A DNA stretch of 64,000 bases from Ignavibacteriales bacterium (lineage in GTDB: Bacteria; Bacteroidota; Ignavibacteria; Ignavibacteriales; Ignavibacteriaceae), in contig JAAYVN010000078.1 in assembly GCA_012517155.1 (NCBI GenBank), positions 1-64,000 on the forward strand. The letters run 5' to 3'. A program made the translations under genes and the position numbers. The number at the start of each line of letters is the position of its first letter. Position 1 is the stretch's first letter. Positions 13,884 to 36,786 of the stretch are shown piece after piece. The notes under the pieces were generated by a model. That model had not been told where the DNA came from, made no database searches, and saw nothing but the letters and a program-made list of their open reading frames with translations.

Positions 13884-14855
13884 ATGAAGAAAAAAAATAT
13901 ACTGATTGTTTTTACCGGCGGTACTTTTTCTATGAAAATTGACGATACAGGAGGTGCGGTTCCCCATTTCTCGGGAAATGACCTTATGCTGTTAATGCCG
14001 GAGATTAGAAAACTTGCCAACATTTCTATATTTGATTTTGGAAAGTATCCTGGTCCACATATGACACCCGAGCTTATGCTTAAACTCTCGCAGAATATTA
14101 AAAATGAATTATCGTCAAATAAATATAATGGTGTTGTTATTACGCACGGGACAGATACGCTTGAGGAAACAGCATATTTCCTGGATCTTACAATTAAAAC
14201 TGATATACCCATAGTACTGACCGGATCTATGAAAAATAGTTCCGATCCCGATTGGGATGGTCCCAGAAATCTTAGCGACTCAATACTTATTTGCCTGAAT
14301 AAAAATAGTTACAACTTGGGTGTACTTGTCTGTTTGAATGGAGAGATTAATGCTGCAAGTGAAGTCACGAAAACTCATACAGACAATATAGAAACCTTTC
14401 ATTCTCTAGACTTCGGGAAATTAGGATTCGTTGAAAAGGGGAGAGTGATATTCAACAGACTCCCCCGAAAACTCGAAGTAATAGAAACCGAAAAGATTGT
14501 TACCAATGTTGATTTGATTAAATGTTATGCGGGGATGGACGACAAGTTCTTCAGGTTTTCAGCAAATAGTGGTATTGCAGGAATGGTCGTCGAAGCTATG
14601 GGAGTTGGGAATGTCCCACCAAAAGCCTTTGATGGGATTAAACATGTAGTTGATAAAGGTATTCCCGTCGTCCTTGTATCCAGATGTCCTGCAGGGGAAA
14701 CCCTTGATATTTATGGTTACCCCGGAGCAGGGAAGTGGCTTCATGCAATAGGAGTTATCTTTTCAGATTACTTGAATGGACAAAAAGCACGTATAAAGCT
14801 AATAGTTGCACTTGGTAAGACTAAGAATCTTAATGAACTTCAGAATTTATTCTAG
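13884..14855 (+). CDS. ansA: L-asparaginase, type I-like (cytoplasmic)
   Basis: Hydrolyses asparagine to aspartate and ammonia. The first catalytic block FTGGTFSM is at residues 10-17 and the second, THGTDTLEETAYFLDL, starts at 87, giving both nucleophile-site threonines. VLTGSMK and SDPDWDGPRNL follow, as does PVVLVSRCPAGET late in the protein. No signal peptide is visible, which fits the low-affinity cytoplasmic form, and the length of 323 fits. The gap to the SDR gene is 35 bases. Its TAG stop shares the CTAG palindrome with the stop of the converging carboxypeptidase gene. Confidence 0.93.
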   Translation: MKKKNILIVFTGGTFSMKIDDTGGAVPHFSGNDLMLLMPEIRKLANISIFDFGKYPGPHMTPELMLKLSQNIKNELSSNKYNGVVITHGTDTLEETAYFLDLTIKTDIPIVLTGSMKNSSDPDWDGPRNLSDSILICLNKNSYNLGVLVCLNGEINAASEVTKTHTDNIETFHSLDFGKLGFVEKGRVIFNRLPRKLEVIETEKIVTNVDLIKCYAGMDDKFFRFSANSGIAGMVVEAMGVGNVPPKAFDGIKHVVDKGIPVVLVSRCPAGETLDIYGYPGAGKWLHAIGVIFSDYLNGQKARIKLIVALGKTKNLNELQNLF

Positions 14856-28875: not shown

Positions 28876-31062
28876 CTATTTAGTTCCATCACACGGAATT
28901 GTAAATATGAATTCCGCACCTTTGCCGGGCTCCGATATTGCATTAACCATCCCCCCATGCCTTTTTATAATTCTATGTACAATGGCTAAGCCCACCCCCG
29001 TTCCTTCATATTCTTCCTGTTTGTGTAACCGCTGGAATACTTCAAACATCTTGTCATGGTATTTCATATCAAATCCAACTCCATTATCCTTTACTCTGAA
29101 CTTACTTCCAACATCTTTGATCTCTTCTCCGCTGACCGAAATCTTAATTACTTCTCTGTTCGAAGAAAACTTTGCTGCATTATTCATTAGATTAATTACT
29201 ACTTGTCTTATTAAGCGGTAATCTCCTTGGGCTTTTGGTAAGTTGCCTATATTAATCTCCGTTTTTTTCTCAACATATTGTGCCTTTATTTCTTCGCCAA
29301 TCGATTTGAAAAGATCTTCCATATCTATGACCTCTTTAACAATCTCTTTGCGGTTTAATCGCGAAAATTGCAGTAGATCTTCAATTAATAATCCCATGTT
29401 TTTTGCATTGGTTAATATATCATTAATTAATTCTTGCCCCTCTTTGTCAATTTTGTTATAGTAATCTTCCATCAATAATTGTGCGAATCCCGTAACTGCT
29501 CTTAATGGTGCTCTCAGATCATGGGATACACTGTAAGAAAAAGCTTCCAATTCTTTATTGGAAGCTTCCAGTTTTTTTCTCTCTTCATTCAATTCTGCGG
29601 TAACCTTGTTAAGGTCTTCCACCATGAAAAGCATCGCTCTCTGACTTTTATTAAGCTTTTCTACTTTCTCATTTAATTCCTCAGTTCTCTCACTGACTTT
29701 CTGTTCCAACTCATTTTTTAATTTTTTTAAATCATCATTAGCTCTTTTGTGCTCTGTAATATCCATTATTTTTCCAAACACTCTTTGAACTTTTCCCTCT
29801 TTTAATTCTGCTTTGGCTGCTGCTCTCACCCACTTTTTATTTCCTTTTGCGGTTATAAGCCCGCACTCAATATCATATTCTTCTCCACCACTTAATAAAT
29901 TATAAAAACTTTTCCTGATCTCTTCCTTCCCGGGATTCTCAAAATAATCAAATAATGATTTGATTTCACTTGGTTTTAAGTCCTTGATAGTGGTCTCATA
30001 TATCTCTGATATTCCTTTTGTGGCTGATGTCGTCTCATTTTCCAGATCATACTCCCACCCACCAGTCTTTGCTATTTTCTCTATTTCTTCAAGAAATAAT
30101 TGGTGGTTATGCAGTTCACGTACTGTTTTTTTGTGTTCTTCTATCTCCCCAATTAAACTTTTTGTTTTGCTTCTTACTTGCTTGCGAAGTGTCACTATTA
30201 GCACAATAATGAAAATAATAATTACGGGTATTATTATATAAAGCGCAATTTTAACCACCTCCATGAAAGGTATTTCCCCCTTATCTGAAGGACCAAACCA
30301 TTTCAGGTGAATTTCATCGTATGTCCCGTTTGCTATTATAACTGATAATCCCTCATTTAGAAGCATCAAAAGGGGAGTGTTTCCTTTCTGAACAGCAAAG
30401 CAAAAGTCTTGCCTGTAATCGGAAATTTGTATGTCCAGTGGTATAATATTATCAATTTCGATTTCTTTCAAAAGTTCAATACCCATAATTCTTTGAGTTA
30501 TTACGGCATCATGATATCCTTCCGACAAATGCTTGAATGCTTCATGGAATGTATTCGTGGTAAAAATATGTTTTGTTAAATTTTTTCTTCTGATATATTC
30601 TTCTGCATTGTCTCCCTTCATTACTAAAATTTCTTTATCCTTTAAATCATTGATGTTCTTGATTCTTGAATCCTCTCTTACAAATATTGCACCATGGAGG
30701 CTCAGATAGGGGAGTGTGAAATCATAAAGTTCTTCTCTTTCCGGGGTTTTTCCTACCAGTGGTAATGCATCTATTCTTCCTTTGGCTAAATCATCTTTGA
30801 TTTTTTCCCAAATTCCGATTTTTATCTCTACTTCAAGATTTACAGCTTTTGCAGCGGCTAGAAATAGATCAACTGAAAAACCACTTGGTTTCCCTTTTTG
30901 AATTATACAATACGGTGGATAATTAGGTTCTGATGCAATTAGTATTTTCTTGGGTTTTAACGTATCTGGATTTTCAGCAAATAGATAACCTTTGGCTTTA
31001 GTTATTATAATTAAACCGGAAATGCAGATCAAAAAGGATATTAGTAAAAGTCTAGTCCTCAT
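28876..31062 (-). CDS. Sensor histidine kinase with periplasmic solute-binding (SBP_bac_3) domain and PAS
   Basis: An export helix (5-25) is followed by an amino-acid-binding-protein type domain in the periplasm (residues ~38-265: EPNYPPYCIIQKGKPSGFSVDL, GRIDALPLVGKTPEREELYDF). Then come a membrane helix near 272-295, a PAS domain (330-440, ending DITEHK), a long coiled coil (440-510), HisKA with SHDLRAPLRAV near 515 and HATPase_c with NLMNNAAKFSS, DNGVGFD and GTGVGLAIV. The layout recalls BvgS-like kinases and phytochrome-type HisKA. The ligand may be an amino acid or related acid. It overlaps the upstream gene by 11 bases. Confidence 0.93.
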   Translation of the reverse strand: MRTRLLLISFLICISGLIIITKAKGYLFAENPDTLKPKKILIASEPNYPPYCIIQKGKPSGFSVDLFLAAAKAVNLEVEIKIGIWEKIKDDLAKGRIDALPLVGKTPEREELYDFTLPYLSLHGAIFVREDSRIKNINDLKDKEILVMKGDNAEEYIRRKNLTKHIFTTNTFHEAFKHLSEGYHDAVITQRIMGIELLKEIEIDNIIPLDIQISDYRQDFCFAVQKGNTPLLMLLNEGLSVIIANGTYDEIHLKWFGPSDKGEIPFMEVVKIALYIIIPVIIIFIIVLIVTLRKQVRSKTKSLIGEIEEHKKTVRELHNHQLFLEEIEKIAKTGGWEYDLENETTSATKGISEIYETTIKDLKPSEIKSLFDYFENPGKEEIRKSFYNLLSGGEEYDIECGLITAKGNKKWVRAAAKAELKEGKVQRVFGKIMDITEHKRANDDLKKLKNELEQKVSERTEELNEKVEKLNKSQRAMLFMVEDLNKVTAELNEERKKLEASNKELEAFSYSVSHDLRAPLRAVTGFAQLLMEDYYNKIDKEGQELINDILTNAKNMGLLIEDLLQFSRLNRKEIVKEVIDMEDLFKSIGEEIKAQYVEKKTEINIGNLPKAQGDYRLIRQVVINLMNNAAKFSSNREVIKISVSGEEIKDVGSKFRVKDNGVGFDMKYHDKMFEVFQRLHKQEEYEGTGVGLAIVHRIIKRHGGMVNAISEPGKGAEFIFTIPCDGTK

Positions 31063-34000
31063 TTGCTATTTTCCTTTTTAGTTCATCTATTTCGTCCCGA
31101 AGTTCTTTCATCCTTAATTCTCGGTTTATTGTTGCATCGTAAAATCTTTCCAGTTCTTTTAACCTTTCCTTTAGTTGGTCTGTTTTCTCTTCAACTTTTC
31201 TCTCAAGTTCATTGTATAATCTTACATTCTCAACGGGCCTTCCGGTTGAATCTGCTAACGTCTGCAAAAGTCTTAAATCCACTTCGCTTGGCTCATAATA
31301 GTCTTTCCAGTAGCATCCGATTGCTGCTATGGTCTCACTGGTGGTTACAGGAACTATGAAAAGACTTTTTACAAATGTGTTTTCGTAATACTTTAGTGGC
31401 ACTCTTGGGTCTTCATAAATATTTTTAATTACAACAGCTTTATTATTTTTCATCACCCATCCGCTAATACACTCATCCAGACTGAATCTTTTCTCTTTCC
31501 AGAGTGGCTCAACCATTTCTTCCTCTACATAATAACACTTATCCCCATCTTTGTATATCAAAGTTGAGCCGTCGCTGTCAGTTAATAGTCTTGCAAATTT
31601 TGTTACATTTCGTTGGATCTGTTCTAAATCGTTTGCTTCCGCAAGGCTCTTGATCCCTTCAACTAATATTTTTAATTTGTTGTTTAGTTCAGTTAATTTA
31701 TTCTCAGCTTCTTTTCTCTCTGTAATATCTAATCCCTGTGCTATTGTTGCTATTATATTTTCTTTTTTCTGATCAAAAATATTTGCTGAATTCCAAAGTA
31801 CAAGTTTGTTCTGACCGCAAAGATTTTTAATCTCTATCTCAACCGATTCAAACTGCAATCCTTTTGAGGTCGCTACTATTAAATCCTGAGAACTCTCTCT
31901 CTTCTCATCGGGAAAAAGTACCTCAATGTCATTCCCCAATACGTCTTCCCGTCTCATGCCTGTGAGTTTTTCAAATGCTACGTTAAATTGCGTTATCTTA
32001 AAGTTACTGTCCCACACAATAATAGGAGCATTAGCATATTTTATGAGATTCTCAAGATATTCCTTCGTCTCTCGTAGTATCGCCTCTGCTTTTTTCCTTT
32101 CGGTTATATCATATATAAATCCATACCATATTATCGACCCGTCTTCATTGAGTGTTGGTGAGGAATGTCCTTCAATCCATTTCTCTCCTTCCGTTTTGTG
32201 TAAGATTCTGAATTCTGCCCTCCAATCTTCTCCGGTTTTTGCAGAGTGTTCTATTGTGTTTTGTAAGTATGCTCTGTCGTTCGGATGAACAACATTGAAT
32301 AATCCCTCAACTAACTCTTCGGAGGCTTCTGGATTTAGCCCGGTTAATTCGGCCCATTTTTTGCTTACATAAGGTAGCGAAGGTACTCCATTTGGATCGT
32401 GATAATATGTGTACATTGCTCCTGGTGCTGTAGTTGCTATTATACTTATTTGTTTATCAAGTTTGCTTTTCTCTTCAATTGCTTCCTCAGCTAATTTCCT
32501 TTCTGTTATGTCAAACTCAATTCCGTCATAACAGACTGACCCATCCTCCAGTAATTTTGGATGCGATATTATGTTGCTCCACCGGTATTCTCCGGAAATA
32601 CTTCTCACTCGCACTTCTATATTGAATACGGATAAATCTTTTAAAGATTTATTTTCTGCTTCCTTCATTTTGTCAGCGTCCTCTGGATGAATTCGGTCAT
32701 ATAGAATATTTGGATCTTTCATCCCATCGGTTGCCGTGAATCCATAAAATTTTTCAACGCTTTCACTCAAGTATGTGAATTTCCTTGTCCCGTCTTTTAA
32801 AGCTACTACCTGATAGATAATTCCGTTTGTAAGATTATTGTTTATCGAGCGGATATGCGTTTCACTTTCCCTCAGTGCAGCCTCTGCCTTTTCTCTCTGC
32901 TCGGTCTCAAATGCTAGTGATACAAAAGAAGATAAAGTCGTAGCTAACTGCTTTTCTTCTGCCAACCACTCCCTTTTTTTACCAACTTCCTCAAAACTTA
33001 GAAGTGCGAATAACTGCCCATGAAGCCACACGGGAGCGTCAAGAAGCGAAACAATATTGTTTTCTTCAAAATAACTCTTTGGTATTTCTCGTGTCCTCTC
33101 ATCTTCATAAACATCACTTGCAGCAATAACCTCTCCCTTTTTATGTTCTTTTGTGTATCCGCTGAATGTAGATGCATTTAAAATCTCCCCGCTCGAATGC
33201 TTATTCTTGCTCAGCTCATATAAATCAATACAATAAATCTCTGACCCATCATTATTGTATAACCAAATGCTCCCTCTCTCAACATTTAACATTTGAGCTG
33301 CTATTTCAGTTATGTTCTTAAGATTATCTTTTAAGTCCCCGGATGAGAAACTTCCTTTTCTTATTAACTCTGACAGAAGTGTTGCATAGTTTTGTTGTCT
33401 TCGCTGATTTTCTCTTAAACTATCTTCAGCCTTTTTCCTTTCTGTTATATCAAGAAATGTAACCACCGATCCAATTATTTTCTTTTCTCTTAATATTGGA
33501 TATGACCAGTATTCCGCTGGAAAACTCGTCCTGTCTTTACGCCACATAACTTCAGTGTCAACATGGGAAAATTTTCCTTCCTTGAATGCTTTGAATATCT
33601 CGCATTCTTCTACCGGAAATGGTGATAAGTCACTCTTTGTATGATGTATTAGATTATGCATGTTTCTGCCAATCAGATCAGAAGGTTCACTGTATCCCAA
33701 ATATTTCAAACATGCGTTATTGCAGAATGTACACAACCCTTTTTCATCCAGCCCGTAGATTGCCTCTGCAGTAGAGTTAAGAATCAGAAGTATTCTCTCT
33801 TCGCTTTCCGAAAGTTGTTCCTCAATCTTTTTTCTTTTATCAATTTCTTCAGTCAGGTCATTTATCAGATTTAAGGACCCCATTTTTATTGAATTTAACT
33901 CGGTAATAGTCTTCTCTAATTTCTGATACCTCTCCTCCGACTTTAATTTATATAAGTCTTTTTCTTCTTCAAGTTCTTTTTGTAGTACCACCCGTTCAAG

Positions 34001-34276
34001 TATTGTTGCTAACATCAGCACCGAATTTTGTATCATTACTTTATCTGTATCTGCAATTCCTTCTTCAAAATCCACTACTACTGAACCAAAGTATTTCCCC
34101 GACGTTCTTAAATCATAAACTCCCTCACTATTATTTTCTTTTTCTTCAGCAAATCTCAGGCTGGTTGGTTGAAAAATCTCTCCCATTCCCTCCATATATA
34201 GGTCAATTATCCTCTCCGAGTCATTTAATTGTGAGAGGTTGAACATCAATAGAAAAAGATCAAAAGATTTTTTCAT
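31052..34276 (-). CDS. Large PAS/GAF sensor protein without kinase or other output domain
   Basis: At 1074 residues, the order by eye is a GAF-like N-terminal piece (1-95), coiled coil (96-150), PAS (158-285), GAF (300-465), PAS (475-600), PAS (610-735), PAS (740-865), GAF (880-1030) and a C-terminal coiled coil. Repeated DITERKKAE-type linkers separate the PAS units. No HisKA, HATPase, GGDEF, EAL or DNA-binding motif is seen. The end reads NRELRMKELRDEIDELK, much like the end of the 610-residue sensor gene upstream. It starts 10 bases after the full-length end of the MEDS frame. It is soluble as judged from the lack of membrane helices and probably talks to the neighbouring kinases. Confidence 0.88.
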   Translation of the reverse strand: MKKSFDLFLLMFNLSQLNDSERIIDLYMEGMGEIFQPTSLRFAEEKENNSEGVYDLRTSGKYFGSVVVDFEEGIADTDKVMIQNSVLMLATILERVVLQKELEEEKDLYKLKSEERYQKLEKTITELNSIKMGSLNLINDLTEEIDKRKKIEEQLSESEERILLILNSTAEAIYGLDEKGLCTFCNNACLKYLGYSEPSDLIGRNMHNLIHHTKSDLSPFPVEECEIFKAFKEGKFSHVDTEVMWRKDRTSFPAEYWSYPILREKKIIGSVVTFLDITERKKAEDSLRENQRRQQNYATLLSELIRKGSFSSGDLKDNLKNITEIAAQMLNVERGSIWLYNNDGSEIYCIDLYELSKNKHSSGEILNASTFSGYTKEHKKGEVIAASDVYEDERTREIPKSYFEENNIVSLLDAPVWLHGQLFALLSFEEVGKKREWLAEEKQLATTLSSFVSLAFETEQREKAEAALRESETHIRSINNNLTNGIIYQVVALKDGTRKFTYLSESVEKFYGFTATDGMKDPNILYDRIHPEDADKMKEAENKSLKDLSVFNIEVRVRSISGEYRWSNIISHPKLLEDGSVCYDGIEFDITERKLAEEAIEEKSKLDKQISIIATTAPGAMYTYYHDPNGVPSLPYVSKKWAELTGLNPEASEELVEGLFNVVHPNDRAYLQNTIEHSAKTGEDWRAEFRILHKTEGEKWIEGHSSPTLNEDGSIIWYGFIYDITERKKAEAILRETKEYLENLIKYANAPIIVWDSNFKITQFNVAFEKLTGMRREDVLGNDIEVLFPDEKRESSQDLIVATSKGLQFESVEIEIKNLCGQNKLVLWNSANIFDQKKENIIATIAQGLDITERKEAENKLTELNNKLKILVEGIKSLAEANDLEQIQRNVTKFARLLTDSDGSTLIYKDGDKCYYVEEEMVEPLWKEKRFSLDECISGWVMKNNKAVVIKNIYEDPRVPLKYYENTFVKSLFIVPVTTSETIAAIGCYWKDYYEPSEVDLRLLQTLADSTGRPVENVRLYNELERKVEEKTDQLKERLKELERFYDATINRELRMKELRDEIDELKRKIANED

Positions 34277-34286
34277 ATTACTTATC

Positions 34287-34484
34287 CTAATCTAAAAATT
34301 CTGGTGCGTTTTCTTCTAACCATTTATCCGGGTCTGTGTAAAAGGGATTCTGTGTTATTTTCCCTTTCGTAATTGTATATGGATGAGTTTGTAATACTTT
34401 TATTATGATTTTACCTGAGAATTTTGCGACATTATAGAGACATATACTAATCCATGGTTTCCCTGGTATGAAATAATTAAGTCT
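34287..34484 (-). pseudogene. C-terminal remainder of the MEDS gene, after an in-frame TAG
   Basis: After the TAG at 34485-34487 the same frame stays open for 65 more codons to a TAG at 34287. It reads RLNYFIPGKPWISICLYNV, then AKFSGKIIIKVLQTHPYTI and NPFYTDPDKWL. This is the expected rest of the MEDS fold (family: YE-x-RLN, CLYD-x-x-F, THP, NPFY). The next gene begins 10 bases later, so the original gene most likely ended here. The piece has no start of its own and is either lost, read through, or the TAG is a base-call error. Confidence 0.75.
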
Positions 34485-34934
34485 CTATTCATATACCATT
34501 AAATGCTCAATGCCGGGTATTGCTTCTAAACCCCAGGTCATCTCTGCAGCTGCTCGGATATTTCTTTTCCCTTTTTTCTGCGATACTGTGTAAAACTCAT
34601 TTAATACTTTGTCCATAATCCTTGGCGAAAAAATACCATCTGGATAGTATAACTCTTTTGCATCCTTAAGTATAAATCTCTCCGGATCATTCACATGCTC
34701 CGCACAGTTTGGAAATTTCTCTTTATACTCTTTGGAAAAATTTTCCTTGGTTCTCTCCGAGGGGCAGTATAATTGAAGGTCATTTACTTCACATCCCTTA
34801 TGCAGGAATCCGAAGACTATCTCATCTCTCTCTTCCTCGGTTTCGTATAATCCGCACATGTGTAGTCCCCAGTTGCAGCTGTAATTCCCAAAGCCCAATT
34901 CAAGGCTTTCCTGATCTGAAGTATGTATGTGCAT
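34485..34934 (-). CDS. MEDS-domain (DcmR-like sensory) protein, truncated by an in-frame amber codon
   Basis: MEDS domains are putative ligand sensors first described next to DcmR and in methanogen and methylotroph regulators. Here LHMCGLYETEEERDEIVFGFL near residue 25 and LQLYC match the start of the family. Translation stops after LEAIPGIEHLMVYE at residue 149, although the domain normally continues with RLN and about 60 more residues, which follow intact after the TAG. A good ribosome site, GGAGG, lies five bases before the ATG at 34934. The gene stands between the two kinase-less PAS proteins in the same direction. If the stop is real the product lacks the last third of its fold. Confidence 0.8.
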   Translation of the reverse strand: MHIHTSDQESLELGFGNYSCNWGLHMCGLYETEEERDEIVFGFLHKGCEVNDLQLYCPSERTKENFSKEYKEKFPNCAEHVNDPERFILKDAKELYYPDGIFSPRIMDKVLNEFYTVSQKKGKRNIRAAAEMTWGLEAIPGIEHLMVYE

Positions 34935-34953: not shown

Positions 34954-36786
34954 CTATTCAATTTTATATCTTTCATCCATGCCTAGCATTTTACATAGCT
35001 CGTTTATCTCTTTCTTTAACTCAAGCATTTTTACTTCTCTCCCCATCATAAATTTGTTGAATTTCTCTAATTCATTAATCTTTTCCTTTATTGTTTCCTC
35101 ATATTTTTTCTGCTCACTTATATCACGTACTATCATGCTCGATAATACTTCTCCATTCTTATCTTTGAATAACGAGGTCGCAATCTCAATAGGAAAGAAT
35201 GTCCCGTCTTTTTTTCTTCCGGTAAGCTCTCCTTTGAAACTTCCGGTTTGTTTTCTTATTTCTAATGCTTTCTCTAATCTTGGATCATTTACATCAACAA
35301 TTGCCCCTCTCCCTATGCTTAATATCTCCTCTTTGCTGTAACCAAAAACCCTCTCTGCTGCATCATTTGCTTTCAATACTTTACCCGAGGGATGTGTTAA
35401 CAATATCACATCCATACTGTTTTCAAAAAGCAAATCAAGATGCTCACTCCCTTCAGTAATCGCAGCTTCTTGGATTTTCTTCTCGGTTATGTCATTGATT
35501 ATTGCTATATAGGCTGCACTGTTTCTGTAGGTTGAATACTGTAGATGAACTTCTACCGGATACTCTGTCCCGTCTTTTCTCCTGTGGATTGTTTCAAATA
35601 TTGCTTTCTCTTTTAATCCCATCTTTAATGGAAGAATTATCGTATTAAACTTGGTTTCGGATATAAAAGGTTTTAACACCAACGGTGTTATATTCATAAA
35701 CTCATCAGATGTATAACCGGTGTTCGATATTCCTCTCTGATTAACATATAAAAATCTTAAGTCATCAGGATCAAATACGTAAATCTCATTTAATGAATTC
35801 TCAATTATTTCGATCAACCCGTATTTTTCATACTCAAGTAATTTCCTATCTGTTATATCCCTTATTGATGCAACATATCCCGCTTTTCGTCCATCGCTTT
35901 CCCTGAAAATAAAGAAATTTACTTCTCCTGTAACGGTTTTGCCTTGTTTGTTTTTATACTTAAGCTCAATATTGGATGATTTCTTCTCTGACTCACTGAT
36001 TAATATATCTCCTATCCGCTTGTAATCTTTCTCATGGGCAAATACAAATCTTGTATCGCGTCCAATCAATTCCTCCTTCTTATAACCCAGAAAATCTGTA
36101 AACGCTGGATTACAGTCTGTGATTTTTCTTTCAAGATCAGATACTAATATTGCATCTCTTATACTGTTAAATAATCCAAGATATCTTTCTGTACCACGTT
36201 TGATTTCTTTTATTAATTGAGTGTTTTCTTCTTGCTCAAGTAGTATTTTTCCAATTAGTAAACTCGCAAATGGATATATCCCTAATATTGTCGCAGTCAA
36301 TAACTCGTATGTTTCTGCTATTCGGTTGGAGGGTACTGTAAGTATAAGTAATAGCATTGTAAAGTGAACTATAAGTCCCATCACATACAATCTTGCTTTG
36401 GTCATTTTGTAATAACCGTTGCTTACTCGGTGATAGTAGAATAAGTAACCAATTATTGTCGCACTTATTATTGTGCTTAATCCCATAGTTAACCCAATTC
36501 CCCCTATGGAAATTCTGTATATACCTGCCATTCCGGCAGCTATTCCTCCGCTTATGGGCCCAAAAAATAATGTGCATAAACTTAAGACTATCGTCCTTCC
36601 GTCAAATATTAAACCTTCAGTTAAATCTAGTGGATTGGACATGCCGATTATCGAAGTGGCACCAAAAAGAATCCCTTGCAGTACTTTACCTGCTGTTTCC
36701 TTTCTGCTGTACCTTGCGTCAACAAAATTGCTTAAGATGCTGATCGCTACCAGAACAGATAGGTTGTAAATTAATTCAACTACCAT
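34954..36786 (-). CDS. Membrane sensor with LytS-like 5TM domain and three PAS domains, no kinase
   Basis: Residues 1-185 hold about five or six membrane helices with the GLIFDGRTIVLSLCTLFFGPISGGIAAGMAG pattern (positions 58-88) of the 5TMR-LYT receptor domain. Three PAS units follow (about 205-320, 325-440 and 450-570), each ending in DITDRK, DITEKK or DISEQK. The C-terminus is a coiled coil ending FMMGREVKMLELKKEINEL. No kinase or other output domain is present in its 610 residues. It is the first gene of the signalling run. LytS-type 5TM domains may sense membrane or cell wall ligands; the real ligand here is unknown. Confidence 0.88.
   Translation of the reverse strand: MVVELIYNLSVLVAISILSNFVDARYSRKETAGKVLQGILFGATSIIGMSNPLDLTEGLIFDGRTIVLSLCTLFFGPISGGIAAGMAGIYRISIGGIGLTMGLSTIISATIIGYLFYYHRVSNGYYKMTKARLYVMGLIVHFTMLLLILTVPSNRIAETYELLTATILGIYPFASLLIGKILLEQEENTQLIKEIKRGTERYLGLFNSIRDAILVSDLERKITDCNPAFTDFLGYKKEELIGRDTRFVFAHEKDYKRIGDILISESEKKSSNIELKYKNKQGKTVTGEVNFFIFRESDGRKAGYVASIRDITDRKLLEYEKYGLIEIIENSLNEIYVFDPDDLRFLYVNQRGISNTGYTSDEFMNITPLVLKPFISETKFNTIILPLKMGLKEKAIFETIHRRKDGTEYPVEVHLQYSTYRNSAAYIAIINDITEKKIQEAAITEGSEHLDLLFENSMDVILLTHPSGKVLKANDAAERVFGYSKEEILSIGRGAIVDVNDPRLEKALEIRKQTGSFKGELTGRKKDGTFFPIEIATSLFKDKNGEVLSSMIVRDISEQKKYEETIKEKINELEKFNKFMMGREVKMLELKKEINELCKMLGMDERYKIE

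Follow-up and report, generated by a model that had tools for sequence, protein, structure and literature searches.

A single in-frame TAG in a stand-alone MEDS-domain gene of an Ignavibacteriales draft genome: probably a base-level accident of the assembly

Why should a stand-alone MEDS-domain gene carry one in-frame stop codon and no other damage? The question is raised by a gene in the window analysed here, a stretch of 64,000 nucleotides from an Ignavibacteriales bacterium (contig JAAYVN010000078.1; Table 1). Translation of the minus strand from 34934 to 34287 gives a protein that begins with MHIHTSDQES and runs for 149 codons up to the internal TAG, then for 65 open codons up to a terminal stop that is likewise TAG. 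The lone TAG and the 65 codons with MEDS C-terminal motifs behind it (RLN, CLYNVAKFSG, THP and NPFY), both pointed out in a preliminary description of this DNA that names no strand, are confirmed by this translation, and the frame does end 10 bases from the next gene, which starts at 34276. When read through the TAG, the product contains one PF14417 domain that covers positions 2–161 of the 161 of the profile with 103 bits, and so passes the curated cut-off (29.8 bits) along the whole model. The C-terminal 65 codons share 63–77% identity with relatives, and 33 of the 34 near-invariant columns are unchanged in them, so the preservation of the frame beyond the TAG is more than chance. An internal restart beyond the TAG can be ruled out, as these codons include no in-frame ATG, GTG or TTG.

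Table 1. Coordinates of the interrupted MEDS gene, its neighbours in the window and other genes of the same assembly with a lone in-frame stop
Feature	Position	Strand	Remarks
Stand-alone MEDS-domain gene, 215 codons up to its normal end, single internal TAG	34290..34934	-	PF14417 over residues 25-185
In-frame TAG, codon 150	34485..34487	-	Ser (27) or Ala (5) in 32/32 intact relatives
C-terminal 65 codons beyond the internal TAG: core strand, helix, THP and NPFY motifs	34290..34484	-	63-77% identity to relatives; structural elements from a relative's model
Normal terminator of the MEDS gene (TAG)	34287..34289	-	
Partner gene, intact, 10 bases downstream of MEDS: conserved N-terminal domain (weak GAF-like fold), then PAS and GAF	31052..34276	-	
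Next gene, 11-base overlap with the partner: solute-binding domain, PAS, histidine kinase	28876..31062	-	
5TM-PAS sensor protein gene, intact, upstream of MEDS on the same strand	34954..36786	-	
ispG, sole copy, in-frame TGA at codon 85 (27256-27258 of contig 3)	L152:7004-8953 (contig 3, 27004-28953)		Leu in 24/24 relatives
CorC-like CNNM-CBS gene, lone TAG at codon 160	L093:15100-16143 (contig 2, 105099-106142)	-	Glu in the two nearest relatives
TPR protein gene, lone TAG	contig 128		
Secreted protein with T9SS tail, lone TAG	contig 148		
Another secreted protein with T9SS tail, lone TGA	contig 134		Also the only internal stop among 150 T9SS tails
Loci of the three preceding genes (TPR and the two T9SS-tail proteins; one TGA, two TAG), frame otherwise open	L086:5656-7644; L123:6162-9263; L184:3503-6187		

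A scan of GTDB genomes returned 33 loci with a MEDS relative at 54–70% identity, spread over about ten phyla (Neomarinimicrobiota, Ignavibacteriales, Acidobacteria, Spirochaetes, Bacteroidetes, Chloroflexi, Bacillota, Deltaproteobacteria, Kiritimatiellia and Sedimenticola are among the sources named), and 32 of them are intact. Codon 150 is a sense codon in each of these 32 (Table 1), TCG, which lies one base from TAG, being common at this site; none has a stop there and none is a shortened form. No intact relative ends at the site of the stop, and the downstream part that the preliminary description had taken to belong to the gene is conserved in them. In the window gene, near-invariant columns are altered at one of 52 positions before the stop and at one of 34 after it, as in intact relatives, which indicates that there is no decay beyond the stop. 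Conserved programmed readthrough is rejected on account of the sense codon found in every intact relative. Among the causes listed in the preliminary description, a sequencing error and a recent nonsense change both remain, and programmed readthrough is not supported. The single locus that is not intact (L035:5001-5641) comes from a deltaproteobacterial MAG, where the MEDS relative is frameshifted around codon 115; the name of its contig states a coverage of 3.56. The viral contigs searched contained no MEDS relative.

A sense codon in the relatives and an otherwise intact frame are what is expected of a recent pseudogene, and both hold for the MEDS gene. The stop could be a real nonsense mutation that arose very recently in the lineage sampled, a reading that we regard as possible, though the less likely of the two that remain. 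A single substitution from TCG, the codon common in relatives, to TAG would suffice, and the gene looks dispensable because of its patchy distribution: a MEDS match is present in three of 146 genomes of related lineages, the window's own included, that is, in two of the 145 others. One same-order match is the same protein as in Ignavibacteriales bacterium CG18_big_fil_WC_8_21_14_2_50_31_20, which places the window genome in this order. The model of this intact relative (68% identical; mean pLDDT 92.8) sets residue 150 within a helix (142–155), ahead of a strand (161–168), and a stop at codon 150 takes away part of the PF14417 profile. A product ending at residue 149 would thus have its helix cut and lack the core strand, it should fail to fold, and the partner would run without MEDS. 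The absence of any decay past the stop argues against a real mutation, however, as do the similar stops elsewhere in the assembly and the class of the base change, both considered below. It is barely credible that the 149-residue protein is a functional short form retained on purpose: the start of its upstream open reading frame is intact and the stop is an ordinary one, which is all that speaks for it, whereas part of the profile and the core strand are lost and no intact relative is short.

The model of the CG18 relative matches KaiC and other RecA-like ATPase structures in a fold search, and a PDB sequence search using the MEDS family profile gave no match. MEDS has been described as an inactive KaiC (iKaiC) in which the ATPase motifs are lost (PMC5847659). 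The intact window protein would adopt such a KaiC/RecA-like fold, presumably inactive, and would be a putative sensor of small molecules. It resembles the known MEDS domain proteins, DcmR and the methanogen kinases, in its full-length profile match and in the KaiC/RecA-like fold predicted for its close relative. Unlike them, it stands alone beside a partner gene instead of being fused to a kinase or DNA-binding domain, and its gene has one internal TAG. Residues 118–207 also match the RsbA-family anti-sigma regulators (NCBIfam NF041045; E 3e-9), but at 36.5 bits this weak match is far under the curated cut-off of 210 bits, and the MEDS protein has no kinase part.

The MEDS gene is one of several in this draft genome with a lone in-frame stop. 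We scanned 1,766,776 of the 3,285,886 bases (54% of the genome) for genes in which one stop is followed, in frame, by an uncovered stretch of coding-like hexamer content. On inspection by eye, most of the 28 candidates were judged to be separate genes (e.g. rpmI) or non-coding frames and set aside. Besides MEDS, five full-length genes in this sample were found with a single in-frame stop in an otherwise open frame, namely ispG, the CorC-like gene, the TPR gene and two genes for secreted proteins (Table 1). Among these five, homologues were compared for ispG and the CorC-like gene. Such stops are rare, which speaks against a base-level accident: internal stops occur in none of 45 HATPase matches, in none of 31 ABC matches and in one of 226 domain matches of the three large families considered. 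The third of these, the T9SS type A sorting tails, is abundant, with at least 150 tails in the 3.3 Mb genome (150 of 190 candidates scored).

Among the interrupted genes, ispG is the most informative. IspG is normally essential, as it is needed for isoprenoid synthesis via the MEP route. Only one match to ispG exists in the genome, and the position of its TGA is a leucine in all 24 relatives that cover the site. A fixed null in this gene is unlikely; with a single copy, an invariant leucine and a normally essential product, its stop is best taken as an error, as a minority base or as a codon that is read through. As a true null is improbable for ispG, the same reading leads for the MEDS stop, and a recent nonsense mutation loses ground. 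We therefore consider that the MEDS TAG is probably a sequencing or consensus error, or the base of a minority strain that entered the consensus. Such a base-level accident of draft assembly would mean that the dominant organism carries an intact MEDS gene and that the stop is absent from the genome of most cells. In its general appearance, the case is like the stops left by draft-assembly errors or found in young pseudogenes, with one stop, no other damage, a sense codon in relatives and several instances per assembly, and we found no feature that sets the MEDS gene apart from them.

The base changes themselves point in the same direction. Where parsimony allowed the stop-creating change to be assigned, it was C to A in MEDS, G to T in the CorC-like gene, G to T in the T9SS tail of contig 134 (the glycine being deduced by eye from the tail of contig 148) and T to G in ispG. 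In each of the four, A and C or G and T are exchanged. Going by codon usage, 44% of the changes that create a stop belong to this class, so that the chance of this outcome is about 0.04 for what are only four cases. Exchanges of A with C and of G with T are common among Illumina substitution errors, although this may not be the platform of this assembly. The likely change in MEDS is a transversion of a class frequent among sequencing errors, which counts against a recent nonsense mutation. Six stops correspond to an estimated 130 or so substitutions in 1.77 Mb, roughly one per 12 kb of coding DNA, a rate that is plausible for a draft consensus.

We may wonder whether the TAG could instead be truly genomic and read through or suppressed, yielding some full-length MEDS protein. 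The frame beyond the stop is intact and conserved, a full ispG product is required, and the six lone stops comprise four TAG, two TGA and no TAA, where codon usage predicts 43% TAA (chance of none about 0.03). The missing TAA is a mild hint towards leaky stops, given the small numbers. Nevertheless, this reading is improbable. Relatives lack a stop at this position, and a profile search of the genome found release factor 1 (prfA, 530 bits), together with a second, weaker match that is probably release factor 2. Ordinary termination at TAG is also frequent: the 1,234 genes that reach 120 codons in the 54% sample end in TAA (750), TGA (268) or TAG (216), to which the MEDS gene itself may be added, and the TAG at 14853-14855, cited earlier as an ordinary gene end, does terminate a 323-aa asparaginase-like open reading frame. 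The amber-suppressor tRNA considered in the preliminary description was not found: none of the 39 strong tRNAs identified in the genome has the anticodon CTA, and the 18 places returned by a directed pattern scan (CTA anticodon, then a T-loop) include no CTA tRNA. The tRNA set is incomplete (Lys-TTT, for example, was not seen among the 39), which leaves room for a missed suppressor. PylS was not found in the genome either.

The view that general reassignment of TAG is unlikely is upheld by these data, and reassignment, pyrrolysine and a suppressor tRNA are rejected on the release-factor, tRNA, PylS and terminator results taken together. The MEDS gene shares with known amber recoding an in-frame TAG within a conserved domain. 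The differences are that neither PylS nor a CTA tRNA was found, that the genome has release factor 1 and uses TAG for ordinary termination, and that the site is not conserved as TAG. Leaky termination throughout the genome, which would tolerate internal TAG and TGA and so give full-length products from all the interrupted genes, MEDS and ispG included, would fit both the lack of TAA (0 of 6) and the interrupted single-copy ispG; we hold it to be very improbable. Overall, an error or a minority-strain base is the most likely origin of the MEDS stop, followed by a recent nonsense mutation, with readthrough or suppression unlikely. Until the reads have been checked, it would be premature to annotate this stop as a case of recoding or a meaningful pseudogene.

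The MEDS gene forms part of a two-gene cassette (31052-34934 in the window; L003–L035 elsewhere) present in about ten phyla, in which a stand-alone MEDS gene is followed by a partner gene. At all loci with enough sequence, the partner, which has a conserved DLFLLMxNLSQL N-terminus, lies directly past the MEDS gene on the same strand, mostly within a gap of about 35 bases; L016, whose sequence ends too soon, was left out of this comparison. The window partner retains this type of N-terminal domain. Across its members, this shared N-terminus matches no Pfam family with confidence. Its model (pLDDT 95) weakly resembles GAF domains in a fold search (best E 0.067). The conservation of the pair leads us to infer that MEDS signals by way of this GAF-like N-terminus, so that an intact gene in the window would yield a stand-alone MEDS protein working with that of the adjoining partner. 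The outputs of the partners differ between loci (histidine kinase, kinase and receiver, GGDEF-EAL, or PAS only). With its shared GAF-like N-terminus, variable outputs and presence in many phyla, the pair formed by MEDS and its partner is of modest interest and merits a name.
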